From Pigmentiphaga humi (GTDB lineage: Bacteria > Pseudomonadota > Gammaproteobacteria > Burkholderiales > Burkholderiaceae_B), in NCBI RefSeq assembly GCF_900606115.1, contig NZ_UWPJ01000022.1, positions 62,001-126,000 on the forward strand: a DNA stretch of 64,000 nt, in the 5' to 3' direction. A program made the translations under genes and the position numbers. Positions within the stretch are counted from its first letter, which is position 1. Each line of letters begins with the position of its first letter. Below are positions 6,753 through 49,183 of this stretch, in pieces. The notes under the pieces were generated by a model. It was not told where the DNA came from. It saw nothing but the letters and a program-made list of their open reading frames with translations, and did no database searches.

Positions 6753-7031
6753 TCAGAACTTGGGCGATTCCTTCGGTGGCGTGTACGGGGTTTCTCCGTC
6801 GCCATAGAACCGCTTGCGCGTGGCTTCGGCGACCCGATTACACAGCACGTCGCCCAGCTTGGCACGGTCGGTTTTGCATTGCTGGCGCAGCTCCTTGAGC
6901 CGTTCGGGGTTGGCTGCCAGTTCTTCCACCGTCGGGATATTTGCCTCCGAATCGGCGGCTTTCTGCGGCGCCTCGGATTGGCCGCAGGCGGTCAATGCGG
7001 CCGCCAGCAAGAAAGGAATGGTCTTCTTCAC
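6753..7031 (-). CDS. EexN-like entry-exclusion lipoprotein
   Basis: This 92-residue protein has a signal peptide and a lipobox ending LTAC (Cys at residue 16), so it should be a lipoprotein anchored on the periplasmic face of a membrane. The mature part (TVEELAANPERLKELRQQC, then a second Cys and a GDGE-type C-terminus) matches the EexN/TrbK-type exclusion lipoproteins that stop a second copy of the element entering the cell. The start is GTG at 7029-7031, overlapping the lysR stop, with GGAGGT 11 bases upstream inside lysR. The family match is from the residue pattern; exclusion activity is inferred from the family. Confidence 0.8.
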   Translation of the reverse strand: MKKTIPFLLAAALTACGQSEAPQKAADSEANIPTVEELAANPERLKELRQQCKTDRAKLGDVLCNRVAEATRKRFYGDGETPYTPPKESPKF

Positions 7032-7972
7032 GGCGTAGGTACCTCCGGTAGGTCAAGAGTATGGCCCGTGATGGGCCGGGGAGATTCCGGTGATTCGATA
7101 GCCTGCACACGTTTAATGAAGCGTGTCAGCACATCGGAGGGGAAATTCTCTGGGCGGAGCAGGTACGTCGTCAGCGGCGGTACACGGGACGCCAGTGGTC
7201 GCGCTACCACGCCCGGTTCACGGCTTGCGACAATGTGCGCTGCACCCGCCAGGCCAAGTGCGAAGCCTGCCGATACGAGCGCCATCATCAGGTCGCAGGA
7301 AGCGACCCGCTCCGCAATTAGCGGCTCCATGTCCGCCCGACGCAGCACTCGATCAACGTGTTTGGCATGGCCTTCGCACACTTGCGGGTCGCACAAGACA
7401 AGCGGGTAGCGCAGCAACTCATCCAGAGGGATGCGTTTGTGGGCCAATAGCGGATGCCTCGCCGGCACCGCCACCATAAGCGGATCGCTCCAAGCCGGTA
7501 AAGCGACGATGCCATCGCCTGCCTCCCTGGACTGCGCGAATCCTACGTCGTACAGATCGTCATGTAGTCCCTTGATCTGTTGTGACAGTGGCACCTCGAA
7601 GAATCGGATTTCGACCTCTGGTTCTTCTTGTCGGCAGACGGCGAGCAAAGCAGATAGGCGTGACGGGGTGATGCCGTCGGACAGCGCCACGCGCAACTGT
7701 CCATGAAATCCATTGGCCGCTGCCCTCACACTGTCCCGTGCTTGTTCCAAGGCGGCGAAGACGCGGCGCACGTGCTCCAGAAACAGTTTCCCGGCGCGGG
7801 TGAGTTGAGTGCTGCGAGTGGTTCGAGCAAACAGCACAACGCCCAGTTCTTCTTCCAACTCTTTGATAGCACGCGACAACGGTGATTGCTCGATGTGCAG
7901 CTTCTCCGCGGCGCGGCCGAAGTGGAGTTCTTCGGCTACGGCCCAGAAATAGCGTAGATGGCGCAACTCCAT
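7028..7972 (-). CDS. LysR-family transcriptional regulator in ICE cargo region
   Basis: This 314-residue protein starts MELRHLRYFWAVAEELHFGR, a typical LysR N-terminus. A winged HTH (about residues 17-60, AAEKLHIEQSPLSRAIKELE) is followed by a substrate-binding domain. The ATG at 7970-7972 is chosen because the family begins here; the upstream extension of the open frame is unlike LysR. Its stop overlaps the GTG of eexN, so an exclusion lipoprotein is coupled to a LysR gene, an unusual pairing. Possible targets are the uspA-sulP pair on its 5' side or the transfer genes. No effector can be read from the sequence. Confidence 0.88.
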   Translation of the reverse strand: MELRHLRYFWAVAEELHFGRAAEKLHIEQSPLSRAIKELEEELGVVLFARTTRSTQLTRAGKLFLEHVRRVFAALEQARDSVRAAANGFHGQLRVALSDGITPSRLSALLAVCRQEEPEVEIRFFEVPLSQQIKGLHDDLYDVGFAQSREAGDGIVALPAWSDPLMVAVPARHPLLAHKRIPLDELLRYPLVLCDPQVCEGHAKHVDRVLRRADMEPLIAERVASCDLMMALVSAGFALGLAGAAHIVASREPGVVARPLASRVPPLTTYLLRPENFPSDVLTRFIKRVQAIESPESPRPITGHTLDLPEVPTP

Positions 7973-8224
7973 GAGAACTTCCCTATATATAGGCGTGTGC
8001 CGCCTTCTCCACGCGCATGCATATCTACAGCCTTGTCGCTCTGAAACTGTCAACGCGCTAGCAGAGCGTGTAATCAGACCGAGTTGTCGTAACTGAAAAA
8101 CTCAAATGTTCGTGTTGCCGACCAACTTATCTTTAGGCCCTCACGATGCAGATTGACTACCCCATCAGGCGGCAATGGGGCCTCGTTCCAAAACAGACGA
8201 CTGCCTTGTGGCGATCGCCTCTTG

Positions 8225-9088
8225 CTACCGCAGTAAGAGCGTTGGAATGCGTGACGAGCGCAATAAGTCCGTCGTCTTGCTTCCAAATAGCAGGCCGCGC
8301 AGTGGTGAATGACCAAATGCGCCCATGATGAGCATGTCAATGGACTGTTCTTTCACTGCCGTTGCAATCACTGTTTCGGCATCTCCGGGAACCAGTGAAA
8401 CCGTCACCTCGAAGCCTGCTGCTTTCAGGGTGTCCCTGGCCCAATCAAGCGATTTGGGTGCGTCTCTGCTTTGCTTGCCGGACATCAGCAATAGGATGGG
8501 CAATCCGCGAAACAGCGGGCTGCCCGCCACCATTTCAACGCCGCGCCGTGTGACGGTGCCGCCATCGAAGGCGATCATCACCCGTTGGGGCGCCTTGAAG
8601 TCTTCGGTCACGGTCAGGATGGGGCGATTCAGAGCGCGAACCAGATGCTCGACATGATGGCCCAGCTCACGTCGCGCCACTTCGGCCCCTGCACCTCGTC
8701 GGCCCAGCACTAACAGACGCACGCCTTGCGCCTGTTCCACCACTGTGTCTTCCAGTGCGCCGTGACGCTGCCGCACATCGACGCGCGCCGCACCCGCCGC
8801 CAATGCGCGTTCGCGCAGTTGGTTCAGGAACAGCCGGCCTTGCTCTCTCGCGCTCTTGGCGCGTGCTTCGTCCTCGGCTGACAGTTGTGCCAACAGGCTT
8901 TCCTGAGCGTCGACGCCGATGGCACCGCTGTGGTCGTCGCCCGGTCCCCGCTCGGGATGGCTGTCGATCACGTGTAGGAACTCCAGCGGTGCATCCATGC
9001 GGTGGGCCGCCCAGGCCGCGCAGTGGGCCACATGAACCGCGTATCGTGATTGATCGACGCAAGCCAGCACCTTATTCTCGTTTTTCAT
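8225..9088 (-). CDS. Tandem universal stress protein (UspA family)
   Basis: This 287-residue cytoplasmic protein has two Usp domains (about 1-145 and 165-287). The second has the complete nucleotide-binding signature G-2x-G-9x-GS (GAFG ... FGS, near residues 258-272). The first has a degenerate version (LGRRGAG), so only one domain may bind ATP. It follows the SulP permease gene with a 15-base gap and the same direction, so the two are almost certainly co-transcribed. Usp/SulP pairs are known in proteobacteria, where the Usp protein is thought to modulate the transporter; here that is inference. Confidence 0.9.
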   Translation of the reverse strand: MKNENKVLACVDQSRYAVHVAHCAAWAAHRMDAPLEFLHVIDSHPERGPGDDHSGAIGVDAQESLLAQLSAEDEARAKSAREQGRLFLNQLRERALAAGAARVDVRQRHGALEDTVVEQAQGVRLLVLGRRGAGAEVARRELGHHVEHLVRALNRPILTVTEDFKAPQRVMIAFDGGTVTRRGVEMVAGSPLFRGLPILLLMSGKQSRDAPKSLDWARDTLKAAGFEVTVSLVPGDAETVIATAVKEQSIDMLIMGAFGHSPLRGLLFGSKTTDLLRSSRIPTLLLR

Positions 9089-9103
9089 GATCCGTTCTCC
9101 TTG

Positions 9104-10582
9104 TTAGTGGCCCGCGAGCATGTCGGCAGCGCCGTCCTTGTCGTGGACGCCGAACTTGTCCACCATCGTGGTGCTGGCCTCGTTCAGGCCGATCACTTCC
9201 ACTTCCGTGCCTTCGCGCCGGAACTTGATGACCACCTTGTCCAAGGCGCTCACCGCGGTGATGTCCCAGAAGTGGGTGCGGCTGACGTCGATGCGTACTT
9301 TGTCGATGACTTCCTTGTAGTCGAAGGCATTGACGAAGCGTTCGGCCGATGCGAAGAACACCTGGCCGGTGATGGTGTAGGTGCGTATGCGGCCTTCGTC
9401 CTCCGTGAGGGAGGACGCATGGAAGATCCGGCCGACCTTGTGGGCGAAGAAAAAGCCCGAGAGCAGCACACCAACCAGCACGCCCTTGGCTAGGTCATGG
9501 GTACCTACCGTCATGGCGACAGTCGCGAGCATCACCACGCTGGAACTCTTGGGGTGCGCGCGCAGGTTGCGAAACGATGTCCAGCTAAAGGTACCGATGG
9601 CCACCATGATCATCACTGCAACCAGTGCAGCCATTGGAATGCGCGCCACCCAATCTCCGATGAACACCACCATCAGCAGCAGGAATACACCGGCTGCAAG
9701 CGTGGACAGCCGGCCCCGGCCACCCGACTTCACGTTGATGACCGACTGGCCGATCATGGCGCAACCCGCCATGCCGCCGAGAAAACCGCTGGCAATGTTC
9801 GCCACGCCTTGGCCTACGCATTCACGGTTTTTGTTGCTGTTCGTGTCGGTCAGGTCATCGACGATGGAAGCCGTCATCATGGATTCCAACAGGCCCACCA
9901 CGGCCAAGGTGGCCGACACCGGGAAGATGATCTTGAGCGTCTCCAGATTCAACGGCACATCGGGCAGTAGGAACACCGGCAGGCTGTCGGGCAACTGGCC
10001 CATGTCACCCACGGTGCGGATGTCGAGGCCAAGGACGATCGCCACGGCGGTCAGCACCACGATGGCCACCAGGGGGGACGGCACGGCCTTGGTGATACGG
10101 GGGAAGAGATAGATGATGGCCAGGCCCGCCGCCGTCATGGCATAGACGTGCCAGGTCACGTTCGTCAGCTCGGGCAACTGGGCCATGAAGATCAGGATCG
10201 CCAGCGCGTTGACGAAGCCGGTGATGACCGAGCGCGAGACGAAGCGCATCAACGCGCCGAGCTTTAGCCAGCCAGCGATGATCTGAAGTACACCCGTCAG
10301 CACCGTGGCGGCCAGCAGGTATTGCAGTCCGTGTTCTTTGACCAGCGTGACCATCAGCAGCGCCATCGCGCCGGTGGCCCCCGAAATCATGCCCGGTCGG
10401 CCGCCTGTGAAAGCAGTCACTGCGGCGATGCAGAATGAGGCATACAGGCCGACCTTGGGATCGACGCCTGCGATGATCGAGAAGGCGATGGCTTCGGGGA
10501 TGAGGGCGAGCGCTACGACGACGCCAGCCAATAGGTCGTGCCGGACGTTGGAGAACCAGTCCTGGCGCAGGGATTTCATCAT
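9104..10582 (-). CDS. SulP-family anion permease with STAS domain
   Basis: This is an inner-membrane transporter of 492 residues with about 10-12 hydrophobic segments (beginning [20 protein letters not shown] near residue 17) and a C-terminal cytoplasmic STAS domain (about residues 395-480). SulP proteins carry sulfate or bicarbonate; the substrate cannot be told from the sequence. The start is placed at the ATG at 10580-10582 (MMKSLRQDW), since the upstream 30 codons of open frame look non-coding; the adjacent ATG one codon on is equally possible. It heads an operon with the Usp gene. A transporter/stress pair within ICE cargo suggests an accessory physiological function rather than transfer. 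Confidence 0.9.
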
Positions 10583-11377
10583 TGATCTATTCCGGGGGCA
10601 GGCTCGGCCGCAGGCTGGAACGGATCTAGGCGCGAATGCCTCTTTCCGAACCCGGAATAGAGAACAGCCCAAAAAGTAAGGGCTGGCAAAACACAGCCAG
10701 TCGAACGTACAGCCTCGTGCGAGCGAAGTTTGAAATTAGAAAAGCGGCTCGCTGCGAGACTGATAGTTACACTGGTAAGAGCTCCAAATAGGTGGCTGTG
10801 TGCTGATGGGTAGTGCGGGGATTGTAACTGCTTTTGCGCACCGCAGCAAGTCCCGGCAGCGCGTCTCTTGCTAGGTTGCTGCCGTTCCCGATGATTGCCC
10901 AGACGCTTGGTAGCTTCTAAGGTCTCTTTCTTAGCGACCGCTCGGCGATGTCCGAGTTCTGCGACTCATGTTCAATGCCAGCACTAGAATGGGTCATGTC
11001 CCATTGCGGTCGTATGTCTTGGAAGCATCAGCCTGCCTTGGTTGGTCGGCCACTTCCTTGCGGCTACTTCTTCCCTGTGACTCCGCCCTGAGCGCACATC
11101 GTGTGCTTGTCGGCAGTCGCCAGGTTGACCACGAATAGCCGAGTACGCCTCACCCCCTGTCTTGAGGGCGTGAACCTCGTAGCTCATTGTCGGCAACATG
11201 AAAGTGTGACTTCCTCGCAGATGTCGATCTAGCGAGGATGTCGAGCTACGAGAAGATGGATGGAACAGCCTAAAGGGCATCTAACCATCAGATCCTGCGA
11301 TTCCGCAGGCCCTCGCCGATCTGTCATGTACGGAGTCGGTGTGAAGACCGACCAACATAGAACCGACATGGGCCGAC
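10583..11377. other. 795-base region with no convincing gene; AT-richer than the backbone
   Basis: This gap separates the divergent sulP gene and the membrane-protein ORF. By eye it is less GC-rich than the ICE backbone, and its short open frames give low-complexity or Cys/His-rich translations without family resemblance. The promoter of sulP-usp should be in its first 100-200 bases. I see no tRNA, IS ends or CRISPR-like repeats. Confidence 0.5.
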
Positions 11378-15074: not shown

Positions 15075-15628
15075 GGCAGCGCCCTCCCGGTCAGCCAGGC
15101 GGCGTGCCGCTCGGTGGTGTATTCGGGCAGCGGCAGGCGCGCAGCAAGCCGGTTGGCGAGCGTGCGCCAGTACGCGGGCGAGACGGCGATGGCTGCGATG
15201 CCCAGCGCCTCGATGGCGTCGATGCGCTCCAGCACGGCGCGCACTTGCCCGTCGCCCTCGGCGTGCAGCAGCAGGCGCGCGCCCGGCTGCACGCCGGGGA
15301 TGCGCTGCGCGCCGTCCAGCGGCGTGCAAGCCTGCATCACCATGAGCTGCCAGCGCACGGTGCCGAAATCGTTGGACTGCCAGCGCACGCGGCAGAACAC
15401 CGCACCCGGCAGGAACACCGCGCTACGCCGCCAGCGGTCGAGCTGGTGCGTGCGCGCGGGTTCGCCGAAGCGCAGGTAGAGCTTGAAACGGGCCTCGATG
15501 TAGGCCAGCGCCACGCGCGTCAGCGGCGCGCTGGCGGGCTGGCCGGAAGGCGCGCTGAATGATGGCTGTGGCGCAGCCGTGGCCGCGCCAGCGGCAGGCG
15601 CGGCAGCAGGTGCAGTGGATGCGGTCAT
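15071..15628 (-). CDS. DUF2840-family protein
   Basis: This 185-residue protein matches the DUF2840 proteins found next to traF in Tn4371-type elements. The N-terminal 40 residues are Ala/Pro-rich and probably disordered; the rest (FKLYLRFGEPARTHQLDRWR onward) is a compact domain with several Trp and Arg residues and no signal peptide or membrane segment. Start at the ATG at 15626-15628, overlapping the preceding RHH gene; stop overlapping traF. Function unknown; its fixed place between the partition and transfer genes suggests a part in DNA processing. Confidence 0.8.
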   Translation of the reverse strand: MTASTAPAAAPAAGAATAAPQPSFSAPSGQPASAPLTRVALAYIEARFKLYLRFGEPARTHQLDRWRRSAVFLPGAVFCRVRWQSNDFGTVRWQLMVMQACTPLDGAQRIPGVQPGARLLLHAEGDGQVRAVLERIDAIEALGIAAIAVSPAYWRTLANRLAARLPLPEYTTERHAAWLTGRALP

Positions 15629-15909
15629 GGTGTGTTCTCCCTGCGGTTCTCGGAAAACTCCCGCTCCAGCAGGCCGCGCAGCAGGTCGGCCACGGTCACG
15701 CCTTGCGTGAAGGCCGATACCTTGATGCGCGCCCGCATGGCGGGCGTGATGTCGAGCGTGAGGCGGGCGGTGTAGAGGTCGCCCTTGCCCAGCGCATCGG
15801 CGTCGCCTTGCCGAATCCACGCTTCAGCGTGCGGATTCGCGGGCGGACGCGCGCCTATGCCGACGCGCTTTGCTGCGCGCTTGCCGTTCGGTGGTGGCTT
15901 CGCTGTCAT
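15625..15909 (-). CDS. Small ribbon-helix-helix protein, probable ParA partner
   Basis: This 94-residue protein has a basic N-terminus and a C-terminal half (RLTLDITPAMRARIKVSAFT then VADLLRGLLEREF) with the beta-helix-helix pattern of ribbon-helix-helix DNA-binding proteins. It directly follows parA with a 4-base overlap, the arrangement of ParA/RHH-ParB (type Ib-like) partition pairs. The ATG at 15907-15909 is preferred over one three codons upstream because it makes the ATGA overlap. It probably binds a centromere site and partners ParA; a separate large ParB-like protein is encoded at 21525-23609. Confidence 0.75.
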   Translation of the reverse strand: MTAKPPPNGKRAAKRVGIGARPPANPHAEAWIRQGDADALGKGDLYTARLTLDITPAMRARIKVSAFTQGVTVADLLRGLLEREFSENRRENTP

Positions 15910-16544
15910 GTCGTCCACCGCAGCAGTTCGTCCACCAGGACGGTGATTTCACGGGCGGCGGCGCTGTCCGGTGCCGTCTCGCGTGCAAGCCGGCCAGCGG
16001 CCACGCTGTCGGCGAACACGATGCGCTGATGCACTTCCGCGCGCAGCGCAGGAAGCGGCTGGTCGGCGAGCGCCTGGCGTGCTTCGCGCCCGATCACGGT
16101 GGTACTGACACGCCGGTTGATGACGAAGGCCGCGCGCAGCGCAGGCCGAAAGACTTGCGCCTCGCGGATCAGCGCCACCATCTCGGCGCTGGCCCACAAG
16201 TCGTAGGGGCTGGGTTGCACCGGGATCAGCACGCGCTCGGCCGCCAGCAGCGCGGAGCGCGCCAAGGCGGCGATGCGCGGCGGGCCGTCGATGACGACGT
16301 GATCGGCGCGGCGTGCCAGCTCTGGCGCTTCCTGATGCAGCGTCTCGCGTGCGAGGCCCACGGCGCTGAACAGCCGTGGCAAGCCTTGCTGGCTTCTGCG
16401 TTGCGTCCAGTCCAGTGATGAACCCTGCGGGTCGGCGTCCAGCAGCACGACGTGCTGGCCGCGCATTGCCAGTTCGCCAGCGATGTGGGTGGCGAGCGTG
16501 GTCTTGCCCACGCCGCCTTTCTGGTTGAGTAGCGCGACGATCAT
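15906..16544 (-). CDS. parA: ParA/MinD-family partition ATPase
   Basis: This is a Walker-type ATPase that segregates or stabilises the element, presumably in its circular form. The 212-residue protein begins MIVALLNQKGGVGKTTLATH with a deviant Walker A (KGGVGKT at residues 9-15) at the very N-terminus and a Walker B-like VVLLDADPQGS near residue 36. There is no N-terminal DNA-binding domain, as in the short ParA class. The start at 16542-16544 is fixed by homology; the open frame upstream enters the repeat-rich non-coding region. It is the first gene of the parA-RHH-DUF2840-traF chain. Confidence 0.92.
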   Translation of the reverse strand: MIVALLNQKGGVGKTTLATHIAGELAMRGQHVVLLDADPQGSSLDWTQRRSQQGLPRLFSAVGLARETLHQEAPELARRADHVVIDGPPRIAALARSALLAAERVLIPVQPSPYDLWASAEMVALIREAQVFRPALRAAFVINRRVSTTVIGREARQALADQPLPALRAEVHQRIVFADSVAAGRLARETAPDSAAAREITVLVDELLRWTT

Positions 16545-16635
16545 GGCTTGGCCCTCCATGTTGGAAAGCCCGGCTGTTGCTGCTGCGTTGATGGCCGCGT
16601 GGCGGTTATCCACCGCAGCGGCGTTTCCCTACTAA

Positions 16636-16667
16636 AAGTTAGAGAAATTAAGTTAGGGAAGTTAGAG
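16636..16667. repeat. AT-rich 9-base direct repeats (possible DNA unwinding element)
   Basis: Three copies of AAGTTAG(A/G)G begin at 16636, 16650 and 16659 on the plus strand. The tract is clearly AT-rich against its surroundings and lies between the iteron-like repeats and the DnaA-like box, as a duplex-unwinding element would. Confidence 0.6.
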
Positions 16668-16710
16668 GGCGCGCAAACCCAGTGCTGGCGCGGGTTTGCG
16701 GCCGATTTTG

Positions 16711-16773
16711 TTGCCTGATAGCACGATAGTTCGTTGCCTGATAGCACGATACTTCTGTTGCCTGATAGCACGA
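16711..16773. repeat. Three iteron-like direct repeats downstream of repA
   Basis: TTGCCTGATAGCACGA occurs at 16711-16726, 16734-16749 and 16758-16773, exact in all three copies. Start-to-start spacing is 23 and 24 bases, close to two helical turns, so a protein would bind all three on one DNA face. They begin about 25 bases past the repA stop. Confidence 0.8.
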
Positions 16774-16797
16774 GTCCGTCCACAGGCTCTCCCGCAC

Positions 16798-17655
16798 TTA
16801 TCCCCGTGCCGTGGACGGCACGGGCCGGAACGTGAGCAGCGGCGACGAAAGCCCGGATACGTGCTCGATGCCCAAGTGGTAGCCGGGCAAGGACTGCCGC
16901 GCGACCAATGCCCGCAGGTCGGCGGCGAAGTCGTAGTAGCGCGCCACGCTGCCCGATTTGCGGTACAGGTGCTGAAAGTCGAACTGCCAGCCGTGTTCCT
17001 GCCTGCCGCCGTGCTTGCGCACCAGGCGGTACAGCCACCGCTCGATGCCGCCGGTCAATCGGAAATACGCCGGGTCGATGGTCAGCACCAGGGCGGCGTC
17101 GATCACGCCCGCATAGAACCAGTCCGGCAGGATCAGCTCGATGCCCAGCGGCGTGCCGCTGGCATCGGCCAGTTCCTTCCATTCGTTGATCCATGAGAAC
17201 CGATGCAGGCGCCGGCCTGTCGTCTCGCGGATGGACGTGGCCACGGTGGTCGATTGCAGGCGATCCAAGGCCGCTTTGAGGCGCTGGTAGTCGCGCAGCG
17301 ACGTGCCGCGCCCGATGAAGCGCAGGATCTCGTAGGGCGTGGCCTGCATCAGCCGCGACGGGCGCAGGCCCGCGTCGCGCGCTTCCACGATCTGGCTGGC
17401 GGCCCAGATCAGAATGTCGGCATCCCAAATCGTGGCGATGCCGTGCTCGGCTGTGCCCTCCACGCGGATCGTGACGTTGCCGGCCCGGAAGTCGATTGGC
17501 GCAACGCGCCGAGACTTCGCCAGCGAGAAGAACGGAAAGGCCATCAAGTCCTGGCTGTCGCGCGGCGCCATGTCGCCCGGCAAGGCGCGGAACAGGTCGA
17601 GCTGTTCGCGCTCTTGCATCGGCCGCTGCCGCACGGGCAGCGCGGGGCTGGACAT
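16798..17655 (-). CDS. repA: Replication initiator protein (RepA-like)
   Basis: This 285-residue protein (start [20 protein letters not shown]) matches the RepA replication-initiator proteins annotated in Tn4371-type elements and some broad-host-range plasmids. It contains long helical segments and a region ATPYEILRFIGRGTSLRDYQ typical of the family. It should bind the iteron-like repeats just past its own stop and load replication factors, letting the excised circle replicate. The ATG at 17653-17655 is chosen because the frame upstream overlaps the AlpA-like gene. It ends 253 bases before the parA start. Confidence 0.85.
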   Translation of the reverse strand: MSSPALPVRQRPMQEREQLDLFRALPGDMAPRDSQDLMAFPFFSLAKSRRVAPIDFRAGNVTIRVEGTAEHGIATIWDADILIWAASQIVEARDAGLRPSRLMQATPYEILRFIGRGTSLRDYQRLKAALDRLQSTTVATSIRETTGRRLHRFSWINEWKELADASGTPLGIELILPDWFYAGVIDAALVLTIDPAYFRLTGGIERWLYRLVRKHGGRQEHGWQFDFQHLYRKSGSVARYYDFAADLRALVARQSLPGYHLGIEHVSGLSSPLLTFRPVPSTARG

Positions 17656-17681
17656 GACGATGGCCTGACGCGCGCCAGCGA

Positions 17682-17963
17682 TCAGCGCGCACGGCTGTCC
17701 GCCGAGTGGTGCTCGGCGTACTCGGGATCGGAAGTCGTCTCGAAGCTGCGGTCGGCGGCCCAAGCATCGAGGTCGGCCACGGCGTACATGACGCGCCGGC
17801 CGAACTTGCGAAAGCGTGGGCCGCCGCCGATCACGCGCTGCTTTTCCAGCGTGCGCGGCGACAGGCGCAGGTACTCGGCGGCTTCGTCGTTGGTGAGGTA
17901 ACGCTGCGGCTGCGCGGCAGCGGTCGAGACAGTGGCGGCAGGCCGCAAGGGAGCGGGACGCAT
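17682..17963 (-). CDS. AlpA/excisionase-like HTH protein
   Basis: This 93-residue protein carries a MerR-type helix-turn-helix of the AlpA/excisionase superfamily: RYLTNDEAAEYLRLSPRTLE (residues about 21-40) then GGGPRFRKFGRRVMYAVADLDAWA. A strong ribosome binding site (GGAGGT) lies 8 bases before the ATG at 17961-17963. It precedes repA by 26 bases on the same strand, so it may regulate repA or act as the element's excision factor; both roles occur in this superfamily, and context favours regulation of replication. Confidence 0.85.
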   Translation of the reverse strand: MRPAPLRPAATVSTAAAQPQRYLTNDEAAEYLRLSPRTLEKQRVIGGGPRFRKFGRRVMYAVADLDAWAADRSFETTSDPEYAEHHSADSRAR

Positions 17964-18046
17964 GGTGTGAACCTCCATCGGTTGAAAACGACCAGCCACA
18001 CAGCGCGACCGGATGGAGGCAGTCTCAAGAAGCGAGGGGTTTTCGA

Positions 18047-18820
18047 TCAGGGACGTTTTGCGTCGGCTGCAAAACGTCCCTTCTCAAGCGGCGCAAGCTG
18101 TGCTAGGCGGCGATAGCCGCCGCGCATCAGCGCATCGCCGCGCCGTACCAGACGGCGCACGCGGGCGCGCAGATCACCGTCGGCGTGCCAGTCGGCCGCC
18201 ACGGCATCGGCGCCGAACAGCCCTTCGGCGATTTCGCGCAAGGACGCGCCCGCCAGGGCTGCGTCGAGCGCCTGCAAGGTGTGCAGTTCCAGCAGCGCGG
18301 CGAGTGTCGGCCGGGGCTTCGTATCGGCCATGTCGGAGCTGGGCAGATGCCCATGCACCGGCGCGGCAGCGCCGCCGCGGTGGGCATAGGCGACAGCCAT
18401 GCCGTCCTCCAGGCCGGGCGCCAGCACGAAGCGCACGCATCGGCCAGGGCTGCGCGCGATCAGCGCCAGCCCTTTGCCGTCATGCAGCAGTTGCTTGTGC
18501 CCAGGGATGTGCCAGAACGCAAAGACCGCCGCATCGAGCGGCGGGTCGGCGTCGGGATAGAGTTGCACCACGGCAGCGTGGCCGGGCAGCCAGGCTGGAT
18601 GCGCGTCGCGCACATCCAGCACCGGGTCTTCCAGAAGGCGCAAGCCCCAGCGATGCGCCGCGTCCTGTGCCGCCTGCGGCCGGCGATGACGGCGCAGCCA
18701 GTCGAGCCGGTAGTCGGGATGCCTGCGCAGGTATTCCCAGGCGAGCGCGAGGTCGTCCAAATGCAGCGCGTACAGGTACGCGGCAGTCGGATACCAAGGC
18801 TCGGCGCTGCGATCGACCAT
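18047..18820 (-). CDS. DUF2285-family protein (ICE regulatory region)
   Basis: This 257-residue protein has a short N-terminal domain (MVDRSAEPWYPTAAYLYALH) and a C-terminal DUF2285 domain (about residues 165-235, ending VRRLVRRGDALMRGGYRRLA) that resembles a winged-helix or HTH fold. Such proteins always sit near the repA/AlpA genes of Tn4371-type ICEs and are annotated as putative regulators or replication-associated proteins; function is unproven. The ribosome binding site (GGAGG) is 8 bases before the ATG at 18818-18820. It lies 83 bases upstream of the AlpA-like gene and is probably co-transcribed. Confidence 0.82.
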   Translation of the reverse strand: MVDRSAEPWYPTAAYLYALHLDDLALAWEYLRRHPDYRLDWLRRHRRPQAAQDAAHRWGLRLLEDPVLDVRDAHPAWLPGHAAVVQLYPDADPPLDAAVFAFWHIPGHKQLLHDGKGLALIARSPGRCVRFVLAPGLEDGMAVAYAHRGGAAAPVHGHLPSSDMADTKPRPTLAALLELHTLQALDAALAGASLREIAEGLFGADAVAADWHADGDLRARVRRLVRRGDALMRGGYRRLAQLAPLEKGRFAADAKRP

Positions 18821-31512: not shown

Positions 31513-32577
31513 CTACTCCGTGTCCTGCGTGCGCTGTTCGATCTGTAAGCGCGCCCGCTCGGTCGCCTGCTGCAATCGTTCGCCCAACACCGCACGCGGC
31601 GGCAAGGTGGTCAGGTACTCGGCGACGTGGATGCCCGACTTGTCCAATTCCAGTAGTTCGATTTGCTCGCGCTTCTTGCCCGTGCAGAGGATGATTCCCA
31701 GCGGCGAGGCTTCTTCCGGCTCCCGCTCGTGCTTGTCCAGCCAGCGCAGATAAAGCTCCATCTGCCCCTTGTACGCTGCCTTGAACTCGCCGATCTTCAA
31801 TTCGACGGCCACCAGCCGCCGCAGCTTGCGGTTGTAAAAAAGCAGGTCAAGGTGAAAATCCTCGTCGTCAATCGGGATGCGCTTCTGCCGGGCAACGAAG
31901 GAAAAGCCCGCGCCAAGCTCCAGCAGGAAGGCTTCCATTTCGCGGATGATCGCGGCTTCCAAGTCGCCTTCCTGCCAGCTATCCCGCAGGCCCAAGAAGT
32001 CGAGGATGTACGGATCGCGCATGACCAGCGCCGGGGTCATGCGCTGCGCATCGCGCAGGGTCGCCAGTTCCTGCGCGATGGTTGCTTCCGTCTTTTGGGA
32101 CAGCGCCGTGCGCTCGTACAGCATCGAGTCGATGCGCTCGCGCAACGTCCGCACGCTCCAGCGTTCGGCGCTCGCCATCTGCGCGTAGTAGTCCCGCTGG
32201 AGCGGGTCTTTCAGCGGGATCAGGGCGATGAAGTGCGTCCAGCTCAATTGTCGTATCAGTGATACGACAATTCGCTCGTCCGGGTAAGCGACGGCGAACT
32301 GCACCATCCGACGCAGATTCTTGACCGAAAAACTGCTGCCGTACTCCTTCACCAGTTGCGCTGCCAAGGTCAGCACGACTTCCTCGCCGTAGTCGGCCCG
32401 CCGACCTTCCAAGACCTGCGTATGGATGCGCTGGCCGATGCGCCAGTAGAGCATCGACAGCTCGCTATTCACCGCCGAAGCGGCGCGCTTGCGCGCCGCT
32501 TCGATCAATGTCCGAATGTCGCCCAGCAGCGCCGTCGGCGCTGCGGGCGAAGGAACAGATGCTTTGCGCCTGTTCAT
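31513..32577 (-). CDS. YhcG-type PDDEXK nuclease (DUF1016)
   Basis: This 354-residue protein has an N-terminal DUF1016 helical domain (about 18-155, including SWTHFIALIPLKDPLQRDYY) and a C-terminal PDDEXK nuclease domain, visible as DEDFHLDLLFYNRKLRRLVA followed by VELKIGEF with the E-x-K core. It starts inside the integrase gene (ATGA overlap at 32574-32577), so it is co-translated with the integrase. Family members have been linked to anti-phage defence, recombination and transposon functions; which applies here is unknown. It is usually a stand-alone gene, so tight coupling to an ICE integrase is notable. Confidence 0.9.
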   Translation of the reverse strand: MNRRKASVPSPAAPTALLGDIRTLIEAARKRAASAVNSELSMLYWRIGQRIHTQVLEGRRADYGEEVVLTLAAQLVKEYGSSFSVKNLRRMVQFAVAYPDERIVVSLIRQLSWTHFIALIPLKDPLQRDYYAQMASAERWSVRTLRERIDSMLYERTALSQKTEATIAQELATLRDAQRMTPALVMRDPYILDFLGLRDSWQEGDLEAAIIREMEAFLLELGAGFSFVARQKRIPIDDEDFHLDLLFYNRKLRRLVAVELKIGEFKAAYKGQMELYLRWLDKHEREPEEASPLGIILCTGKKREQIELLELDKSGIHVAEYLTTLPPRAVLGERLQQATERARLQIEQRTQDTE

Positions 32578-33773
32578 GCGATGGCCTCCTGGGGCTGCCG
32601 CGCGCCCGTGATGGCCTGCCGCCGGCTCGCCACCAGTTCGGCCGCATCACGCACCGGCTTGTCCTCGGTGTGAACGTAGTGCATGAACATTGCCACGGTC
32701 TTGTGGCCCGTCAGCTTCATACCTACCTTGGTCGGCACGCCCGAATTGGCAATGTCGGTAGTCGAGCGATGGCGGATGCCGTGCGTACCGACATGCGGAA
32801 CACCGGCGGCCTTGAGCACGCGGCACCAGCCGCCATAGTGCTCGCCAAAGGTCAGGTGCTTGGTCGGGTCGTTGGGCGACGGCAGGACGTAGGGGCAACC
32901 GTCCCGGCGCGGTGCGGTCGAGAACAGCCGATAGGCTTCCGCGCTCATGGGCTTGGAAAGGCCGCCGGTCTTGCTGTCCGGCCACACCACGCGCCGATTC
33001 TCCAGGTCGATCCAGCTCCATTCGAGCGTGCAGATTTCGGAGCGACGACCGGCAAACTCGAATTGCAGGCGGATCGCCAGCGGGATGACGTAGTTCTCCA
33101 GCCCTTCCGCCTCCAGCTTCTCCAGTTGGCGGAAGATCAGCGCCAGCTCGTCGTCCACGATGAGCCGGGTTTCCTCGCCGGGCGGATACATCGGGACGTG
33201 GCGGCACGGGTTCGTGCCGTCCGGGCGGAAGCCCCACACTTCGGCCAGGTTGAACATCTTGCGCAGCACGCCAAAGGCATTGTTCGCCTCGGCCGGCTTG
33301 TAGGCCAGCTTCTCCATCAGCCCGGCAATGTCGGGCCGCTTCACGTCCTGCACCTTCTTAGGGCCGATCAGCGGGACGATACAGCGGTCGATGACCGCCT
33401 GATAGCCGCGCTGCGTGCTGGGCTTGTTGCGCTTTTTGGAGTAGTCCTCCATGAACTTCTTGCACAACGCTTCGACCGTGGGTGCCTTGCGCGCCTCGGC
33501 CTTGGCACCGCCGGGATCGCCGCCCCGGCGAACCTCGGCCAGCCAGTCTTGCGCCATGACGCGGGCCTGCTCCACGGTCAGTTCCCCGAACAGGCCCAGC
33601 GAGGGCTTGCGAGGCTGCCCGGAGTTCGTGCGGTACTGGAGCATGAACACCCGGCGGCCCTTCGGGGTAATCTTGCAGAGGAAGCCGGGCACAACGGTAT
33701 CCCGTAGTTCGATGTCCTTCGCCTGGGGTTGCGCAGACTCTACGGCGGTCTTGGTGAGCTTGATTTTTGCCAT
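32574..33773 (-). CDS. int: Tyrosine recombinase (ICE integrase)
   Basis: This is the site-specific recombinase that integrates and excises the element. The 399-residue protein has an N-terminal arm-binding domain (DUF4102-like, about 5-90), a core-binding domain (about 98-180) and a catalytic domain with Arg243 (AGRRSE), His331 and Arg334 (HGIRH), His357 (TGHKT) and the nucleophile Tyr366 (MHYVHTE). AAGGAG lies 8 bases before the ATG at 33771-33773. The open frame extends 10 codons upstream without a better start. The gene reads into the element from next to the presumed att site. Confidence 0.95.
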   Translation of the reverse strand: MAKIKLTKTAVESAQPQAKDIELRDTVVPGFLCKITPKGRRVFMLQYRTNSGQPRKPSLGLFGELTVEQARVMAQDWLAEVRRGGDPGGAKAEARKAPTVEALCKKFMEDYSKKRNKPSTQRGYQAVIDRCIVPLIGPKKVQDVKRPDIAGLMEKLAYKPAEANNAFGVLRKMFNLAEVWGFRPDGTNPCRHVPMYPPGEETRLIVDDELALIFRQLEKLEAEGLENYVIPLAIRLQFEFAGRRSEICTLEWSWIDLENRRVVWPDSKTGGLSKPMSAEAYRLFSTAPRRDGCPYVLPSPNDPTKHLTFGEHYGGWCRVLKAAGVPHVGTHGIRHRSTTDIANSGVPTKVGMKLTGHKTVAMFMHYVHTEDKPVRDAAELVASRRQAITGARQPQEAIA

Positions 33774-33948
33774 GATGACTCCTTGGAACGACCCGGATTC
33801 CAAGAGCCAGATAGGAGCGGCGCGAGGGCAAACCGGGTCAGATTTCAGAAAGCACCGGCATATGATGGACGCGCGTAAGCTATTGATAAACCTGCTGTAT
33901 CGAGCTGCTGCGCAGTCCAGCGAACTACCGGGCTGGAGTCATCGTCAA

Positions 33949-33956
33949 ACAAAAAA
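33949..33956. other. Candidate attachment-site core of the ICE
   Basis: ACAAAAAA (minus strand TTTTTTGT) fits the TTTTTYRT core I recall for Tn4371-family insertions. It is 176 bases outside the int start, where the element should end, and forms part of the T-run of the adjacent terminator. The other att copy is outside the window, so this is not proven. Confidence 0.4.
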
Positions 33957-47584: not shown

Positions 47585-49183
47585 GTGACTGACTTCCCTC
47601 TCCTTGTTTCCCGGAAGCGCCTGCGCGCCTCCCGCGTCCTGCTGTCCGCCCTGGCGTTGACGGTCGGCCTGCTGGCCGCCGCGCCTGCGAGCGCTTTCGA
47701 TTTCTTCGATGTCACCCGGCGCGCCAAGGCGCTGGCCAACGAGAAATACAAGGCGCCCAGCAGCGCACTGCCCAAGGAGTTGCGCGAACTCAAGTACGCC
47801 GATTACCAGCAGATACGGATCAAGCCGGACCGGCAGCTCTGGGCCGACGGCCGCACGACCTTCCAGGTCGCCTTCCTGCACCAGGGCATGGCCTTCGACC
47901 TGCCCATCAAAATCAACGAGATCGACGCAGAAGGCGTGCGCGAGATCAAATACGACCCCGACGACTTCGACTTCGGCACACGCAAGCCTGACCTGAAGCA
48001 GCTCAAGAACCTCGGCTTCGCGGGTTTCCGCGTGTTCCATTCCTTCGGCGACCGGGCCAACAAGCGCGACGGCGAGCTGGCCTCGTTCCTGGGCGCGAGC
48101 TACTTCCGCGTGGCCGGCAAGGGCCAGGTCTTCGGCGTGTCCGCGCGCGGCCTGGCCATCGACACGGCGGTCGCCTCGGGTGAAGAATTCCCGCGCTTCC
48201 GCGAATTCTGGATCGCCCGTCCGGCCAACAACGACAAGCACCTCGTCATCTACGCGCTGCTCGACTCGCCGCGCGCCACCGGCGCCTATCGCTTCACCAT
48301 CAATCCCGACGAAGACACCACGGTCCAGGTGCGTTCGCGCGTCTACCTGCGCGCGCCGGTCGGCAAACTGGGCATCGCCGCGATGTCCAGCATGTACCTG
48401 TACGGTTCGGCCCAGCCCTCTTCAGCCGCCAATTTCCGTCCCGAACTGCACAATTCCGACGGCCTGGGCATACGGGCCGGCAACGGCGAATGGCTGTGGC
48501 GCCCACTGAACAATCCGCGCCGGCTCGCCAGCAGCTCGTTCGCCGTCGAGAATCCGCGCGGTTTCGGGCTGCAGCAGCGTTCGCGCGATTTCCGCCTCTA
48601 TGAAGACCTGGACGAGCGCTACGACCTGCGTCCCTCGCTGTGGGTCGAACCCGAGGGCGACTGGGGCAAGGGCCGCGTGGAACTGCTCGAACTCCCCACC
48701 TCCGACGAGACCAACGACAACATCGCCGCGTTCTGGGTCCCGGAGAGTCCGCCCAAGCCCGGCGCGGCGCTGGACCTGAACTACACGCTGCGATGGACTC
48801 GCAACGAAACCGCGCTGGCCGACGCGAAGCTGGCGCGCGTGCTGCAGACGCGGCGCTCGACAGGCGAAACCCGCGGCGCCGACCAGATCCGGCGGCCGGA
48901 CGGCAGCATCGCGCTGATGGTGGACTTCTCCGCGCCGGTCCCGGCCAAGCCCAAGGATCCGCCGCTGCCGGTGTCGCTGAATTTCTCCACCAGCGGCAAC
49001 GCCGACGTGCTGGAGAACAGCCTGCGCCGCAATCCCGTCACCGGCGGCTGGCGCGTCAGCTTGCGGCTGAAGGTCAAGGATCCGGCCAAGCCGGTGGAAA
49101 TGCGCGCCGCGCTGGTCAATGGCCAGAACCCCGTATCCGAAACCTGGAGCTACCAGCTGCCGGGCTATGAGACGGGTGAATAA
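47585..49183 (+). CDS. opgG: OpgG/MdoG periplasmic glucan biosynthesis protein
   Basis: This periplasmic protein is needed for beta-1,6 branching and polymerisation of osmoregulated periplasmic glucans. The 532-residue protein begins [20 protein letters not shown] (GTG at 47585) with a signal peptide ending APASAFDFF. OpgG signatures include [47 protein letters not shown] and LNNPRRLA. An in-frame ATG 49 codons earlier is unlikely as it would bury the signal peptide. It is followed by opgH after 4 bases. Confidence 0.94.

Follow-up and report, generated by a model that had tools for sequence, protein, structure and literature searches.

Tn4371-type ICEs, which are widespread among beta- and gamma-proteobacteria, are vehicles for genes of degradation and of metal and antibiotic resistance. 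The 64 kb stretch of DNA analysed here, hereafter referred to as the window, includes a short region between the repA and parA genes of one such element, and the question that it raises is whether the element could be replicated from this region once it has been excised. A preliminary description had proposed a plasmid-type iteron origin at this site, and comparative analysis strongly supports that proposal. The region is very likely an iteron origin of a type already known and, on the basis of sequence comparison, positions 16606-16806 probably represent an iteron-type theta oriV of a Tn4371-family ICE, which would be bound by RepA and serve the excised circle. An origin of a known kind is thereby located in an ICE family for which the literature searched, in the portions available, describes neither an iteron origin nor an oriV. 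In the accessible part of one report, the repA of Tn4371-family ICEs is termed only possibly involved in replication (PMC2789088).

By its gene content and ends, the element that contains this region belongs to the Tn4371-type ICEs and spans approximately 40 kb. These features include a tyrosine integrase (32574-33803, minus strand; 70.6 % identical to the int of the Tn4371-like element on pPNAP01) and an 11-base att repeat, CAAACAAAAAA (33946-33956, plus strand), of which the other copy falls beyond the window at C25:55927 of the contig set, at a distance of 40.0 kb. At both ends CAAACAAAAAA contains the complement of TTTTTTGT, of the TTTTT(C/T)(A/G)T kind, and the empty att site (joined flanks) was found in none of 60 other genomes. 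Other ICE genes encode a relaxase with DUF3363, TraG and a T2SSE-family (TrbB-like) ATPase (Pfam), a ParB-like protein and a LysR-family regulator (7028-8053, minus strand), which is a candidate TraR. The ParA/RHH pair named in the preliminary description is also encoded, with parA at 15906-16559 (minus strand; start at 16559 or 16544) and the small RHH protein, the likely ParA partner, at 15625-15909 (minus strand; Pfam match below the cut-off). Relatives of seven ICE proteins, with 65-91 % identity, are encoded in the same order on the pPNAP01 element, which is listed among the Tn4371-like elements (PMC2789088). The order common to the window and pPNAP01 is int, ParB-like, xis, repA, parA, RHH and relaxase, while the searched stretch of pPNAP01, which ends at 49000, yielded neither TraG nor the LysR gene. 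The likeness to the Tn4371-family ICEs (Tn4371, ICEKKS102Tn4677 and the pPNAP01 element) thus comprises the TTTTTTGT type of att, the gene order shared with pPNAP01 and a TraR-type box like that of KKS102. A small cargo region (8225-10672), encoding a universal stress protein and a SulP-type sulfate permease, is situated between the LysR gene and the relaxase gene.

The region between repA (16798-17658, minus strand; GTG start) and parA incorporates three exact direct repeats, GTTGCCTGATAGCACGA, which read TCGTGCTATCAGGCAAC on the repA strand. The repeats and their 23-24-base spacing had been noted previously and are real, with a length of 17 rather than 16 bases. They are located on the plus strand at 16757-16773 (next to repA, and the first on the repA strand), 16733-16749 (middle) and 16710-16726 (next to a hairpin, and the third on the repA strand), with start-to-start distances, in this order, of 24 and 23 bases, and no further site with three or fewer mismatches to the 17-mer occurs in the 64 kb window (0.09 expected). 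The DnaA-box-like sequences mentioned in the preliminary description are likewise present, with one to two mismatches. These include a TCCACA core before the first iteron (16779-16784, plus strand; TGTGRA kept in 71/76 elements), TTATCCCCG (16798-16806, plus strand; two mismatches to TTATCCACA), which overlaps the repA stop, and TTATCCACC (16606-16614, plus strand; one mismatch to the DnaA consensus; KGTGGA kept in 72/76 elements). The letters of TTATCCCCG, silent positions included, are kept in 65/79 distinct elements and 75/80 close relatives. Given that this sequence (CGGGGATAA on the repA strand) also encodes the end of RepA, the constraint may be double. As three one-mismatch DnaA sites occur in the window, against 3.2 expected, TTATCCACC alone is not above chance. 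The AT-rich region (16624-16667), a proposed DNA unwinding element, contains the three 9-mers, AAGTTAG(A/G)G, that had been reported before (16636-16644, 16650-16658 and 16659-16667). These fall within the 40-base segment of highest AT content in 16400-17000 (70 % AT, a value reached by 0.09 % of the 40-mers of the window). At least three TAAC motifs are found in the corresponding region of 76/76 elements, as opposed to a mean of 0.0 in a control stretch further on (76 elements, one short of 77, enter the box and TAAC counts). A GC-rich hairpin (16668-16703, minus strand; -22.7 kcal/mol, z -4.3) separates the iterons from the AT-rich region; it has no T run, and its inverted repeat is partly visible in relatives. 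Read on the repA strand, the computed order is CGGGGATAA across the stop, TGTGGA, three iterons, the GC hairpin, three TAAC 9-mers, CGGTGGATAACC and parA.

Absence of the repeats from relatives with the same repA would have spoken against the preliminary interpretation, but three copies of the repeat core are present in all 80 close RepA relatives (85-99 % identity). The copies begin 27, 51 and 74 bases after the repA stop in 76/80, with a shift as a block in the other four, and at least two copies with no more than four mismatches to the 17-mer of the window itself are found in 80/80. After identical RepA-plus-tail rows were merged (111 to 79; the partial L109 was dropped), the 24/23 spacing could be observed in 77/79 distinct elements. 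Both L084 and L123 carry the repeats. In L123 (Niveispirillum plasmid unnamed1) the repA frame is open through the iterons and AT repeats to parA, and the repeats are still spaced 24/23. When 300 genomes of the order were searched, the two-copy repeat pattern was found in ten (13 loci), and each of these loci adjoins a RepA with 76 % identity or more. The control, which was the pattern in reverse, was found in none of the same 300. Fifteen full-length or nearly full RepA places with at least 65 % identity are present in these genomes (the truncated RepA of G126 was left out), of which thirteen fit the pattern and two have altered iterons, one being that of G140 with three copies of TCGTGCTATCAGACGC. 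The other of the two is a further RPA-type element of the genome from which the window comes (C46:112148-112936; L002, L088). It encodes a RepA with 67 % identity and has the same origin layout, with three TTCGGGGTTTTNGGCGCA-like repeats at 23/23 spacing, a consensus DnaA box before them and TAAC repeats after.

The protein encoded beside these repeats is a 286 aa initiator of the Pfam RPA family (PF10134; 303.9 bits against a cut-off of 27, residues 33-262), this being the sole Pfam match at an E value of 0.001. A PDB sequence search with RepA gave a best E value of 0.41. The AlphaFold model (mean pLDDT 82) predicts two winged helices, with a C-terminal HTH at 228-254 followed by a wing, and helix 241-254, which includes residue 246, is the predicted recognition helix by its position before the wing. 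In structural comparisons, which included a Foldseek search, this computed model matches RctB (5tbf, Z 17.6), two RepE complexes (one with iteron DNA, 1rep, Z 14.0; one with an iteron plus unwound DUE, 8aan, Z 14.3) and the pi-iteron complex (2nra, Z 12.8), at 12-16 % identity. RepA would thus share its fold with mini-F RepE and R6K pi, while differing from them in sequence (about 12-14 % identity). The repA gene is under purifying selection, with a median dN/dS of 0.19 (1336 pairs from 60 genes; pairs with at least 80 % identity and unsaturated dS).

Among more distant RPA loci (below 61 % identity), three-copy repeats are present within 380 bases after repA in 9/18, L116 being too short for this comparison. 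Iterons follow repA in 5/9 circular-plasmid records with RPA initiators under 61 % identity (L126, L127, L128, L132, L133), namely Azospirillum p2, Novosphingobium humi unnamed3, Methylobacterium pM44601, Xanthomonas pXAS24 and P. syringae pNCPPB880-40. In two of the other loci, Roseivivax pTHAF40_f and the IncU-typed p6P3, repeats are situated upstream of repA, and L121 carries them further downstream. The remaining 6/18 loci showed no repeats in the flanking sequence available, at most 1.2 kb per side (for L129, cut just before repA, the downstream side only). Repeats are also found beside the RPA genes of 14/27 IMG/VR relatives (28 loci less the truncated L134). That plasmids have comparable repeats following repA, and that IMG/VR contigs have them next to their RPA genes, argues against accessory sites for integrase or excisionase. 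An excisionase-like gene does adjoin repA, but the nearer att site is 17 kb away, and this explanation is extremely improbable.

Other type Ib systems have small RHH partner proteins that bind to direct repeats. Given that the repeats and 9-mers of the window are located just upstream of parA, they could instead represent a partition site (parS) or an operator for the RHH partner of ParA. The plasmids pM44601 and pXAS24 are informative in this regard. They resemble the window element in having an RPA (PF10134) initiator, iterons after repA at 21-24 base spacing and AT-rich TAAC/TAAAAC repeats beyond, and differ from it in the iteron sequences, in a RepA of only 34-42 % identity and in the position of parA, which lies upstream of repA. 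The iterons and AT-rich repeats nevertheless remain after repA, and the 9-mers thus appear to be part of the origin rather than of a partition site. On the same grounds the 9-mers were rejected as a parA operator. Similar AT-rich repeats are clear in 5/8 distant loci (L127, L128, L132, L112, L115) and not clear in L126, L133 and L113. As the tails of the window-type repeats also covary with a RepA residue, as described below, a partition role is very unlikely. Two RepA records examined in the plasmid collection (at least 80 % identity) lie inside larger plasmids, and the RepA of pVS1 is reported as related (PMC2789088). The 17,850 bp linear record pBAL398.2 (L083) was considered as proof of a free form and rejected, since it ends inside transfer genes.

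Variation within the iteron is slight over the first 13 bases and greater over the final four, and this four-base tail is identical across all three copies in 63/77 elements. Residue 246 of RepA predicts the tail in 72/72 elements of the three main types (A-CAAC, 16; C-CGTG, 39; Y-AGTA, 17), this number comprising the distinct elements with one of the three main tails. Across all 77 rows, Y246 also occurs with GACC and AGCG, and R246 with two CGC tails, while residues 238 and 240 separate CGTG from the other tails in 77/77. A base-by-base scan from -400 to +270 around the repA stop (71 elements, one of the 72 missing) gave normalised mutual information above 0.5 only at codons 238-246, the iteron tails and the three bases directly behind the tails. 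The computed covariation may suggest that the C-terminal recognition region of RepA (residues about 238-246) reads the tail. Codon 246 and the tails are only some 160 bases apart and the best tree of RepA residues 1-221 requires at least 16 changes of repeat type, which suggests cassette exchange, and they could be travelling together merely as neighbours swapped as one cassette, with no bearing on binding. However, the approximately 160 bases between codon 246 and the first tail reach at most 0.46 (20-base bins, -120 to +40), compared to 1.0 at codon 246. This intervening DNA is hardly associated with tail type, which argues against mere linkage, and the residues that covary with the tail lie close together at the predicted recognition helix. 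Co-travel as a cassette is consequently quite unlikely. The RepA tree is poorly resolved, with only two supported independent switches or pairs per repeat type, so that a phylogenetic sign test cannot reach significance. If RepA does read the tail, residue 246 and the iteron tail provide a direct handle, and changing one or a few residues should alter the origin used by RepA.

A 93 aa gene (17682-17963, minus strand), 23 bases upstream of the repA GTG, encodes an HTH_17 protein with an excisionase match below the cut-off and is a candidate xis/rdfS. This fits the rdfS/xis of the Tn4371 family, which is reported to adjoin RepA (PMC2789088). Upstream of xis, a TraR-type box (CGTTTTG-N9-CAAAACG; 18054-18076, plus strand) occurs in exact form once in the window. 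The box is exact in 43/73 relatives and has at most one mismatch in 53/73, at 388-472 bases before the repA match (73 elements, six short of 79), while none of 79 repA-body controls contains it at two or fewer mismatches. The putative TraR box before xis in ICEKKS102Tn4677 has the same sequence, and binding of TraR to it was weak in an assay (PMC11448139). One terminator-like site is found between the box and xis (1.2 expected by chance), and a scan of 16500-18150 retrieved no sigma-70-like promoter. As xis and repA are only 23 bases apart behind the computed box, TraR probably raises both, presumably through co-transcription, and the onset of excision would probably coincide with that of replication. 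After induction of TraR in ICEKKS102Tn4677, attP increased 130-fold and attB 40-fold relative to time zero (PMC11448139). The excess of attP over attB is compatible with replication, and rolling-circle copying would account for it equally well.

For other ICEs, copying in rolling-circle mode from oriT has been described (PMC4489591). If RepA no longer fired the origin, the circle could survive only by such copying and re-integration, and the repeats would be a relic of a plasmid ancestor that serves RepA as an operator or titration site (autoregulation, incompatibility). The element is integrated, and RepA-dependent replication of a Tn4371 ICE was not found in the literature examined, in the parts available. 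However, the repeats are situated after repA and not before it, the whole origin set of boxes, iterons and AT repeats is kept rather than the iterons alone, and repA is under purifying selection. The operator or titration role is therefore rather unlikely, and the origin reading is preferred.

The closest known system for such an origin in an integrated element is S004-rep-oriV of SGI1, which likewise incorporates an HTH_17 gene, rep, 16-17-base iterons downstream, an AT-rich region and DnaA boxes (PMC7826253, PMC7433901). Replication of SGI1 after excision has been shown, with 4-8 copies per cell (PMC7826253, PMC7433901). By the available descriptions, which are the basis for setting them apart, the SGI1 Rep is named as a Rep_3 family or RepA_C domain protein and not as RPA. 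Its four iterons are of another sequence, and SGI1 requires an IncC helper, whereas the window element itself encodes transfer functions together with a TraR-like regulator. From the anatomy and the SGI1 precedent, the excised circle of the window element likely undergoes transient autonomous replication, with a copy number that would exceed one. RepA, as a two-winged-helix RPA initiator, would bind the three 17-base iterons, with its recognition region reading the tails, and together with host DnaA at the flanking boxes would open the AT-rich 9-mer region, whereupon host helicase and polymerase would enter and replication would proceed in theta mode. The signal for excision would probably also supply RepA, as in SGI1, and ParA and the RHH protein would segregate the circle. 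Should the circles indeed replicate, it would be necessary to rethink how excision leads to loss of the element, as well as its transfer yield, its host range and the competition among elements. More tentatively, and with a probability somewhat below even, the Tn4371-family ICEs may be part-time plasmids, in which a single TraR-driven xis-repA unit would start excision and theta replication at the same time, and a helix/tail code of several classes (A-CAAC, C-CGTG, Y-AGTA, R-CGC and others) would allow different ICEs in one cell to replicate without cross-talk. Both this switch and this code are predictions that can be put to the test.

Some genomes harbour more than one such element, with three in G133 and two in G231, and their tail types partly differ and partly agree. 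The same CGTG tail type occurs twice in G133, and Diaphorobacter aerolatus (L034, L070) also contains a CGTG pair. Given the co-residence of same-type elements in one genome, there is no sign of incompatibility between them while they are integrated. A Tn4371-type ICE with AGTA-type iterons and efflux-gene cargo is furthermore present inside an IncL/M OXA-48 plasmid (L085; OW967598.1).
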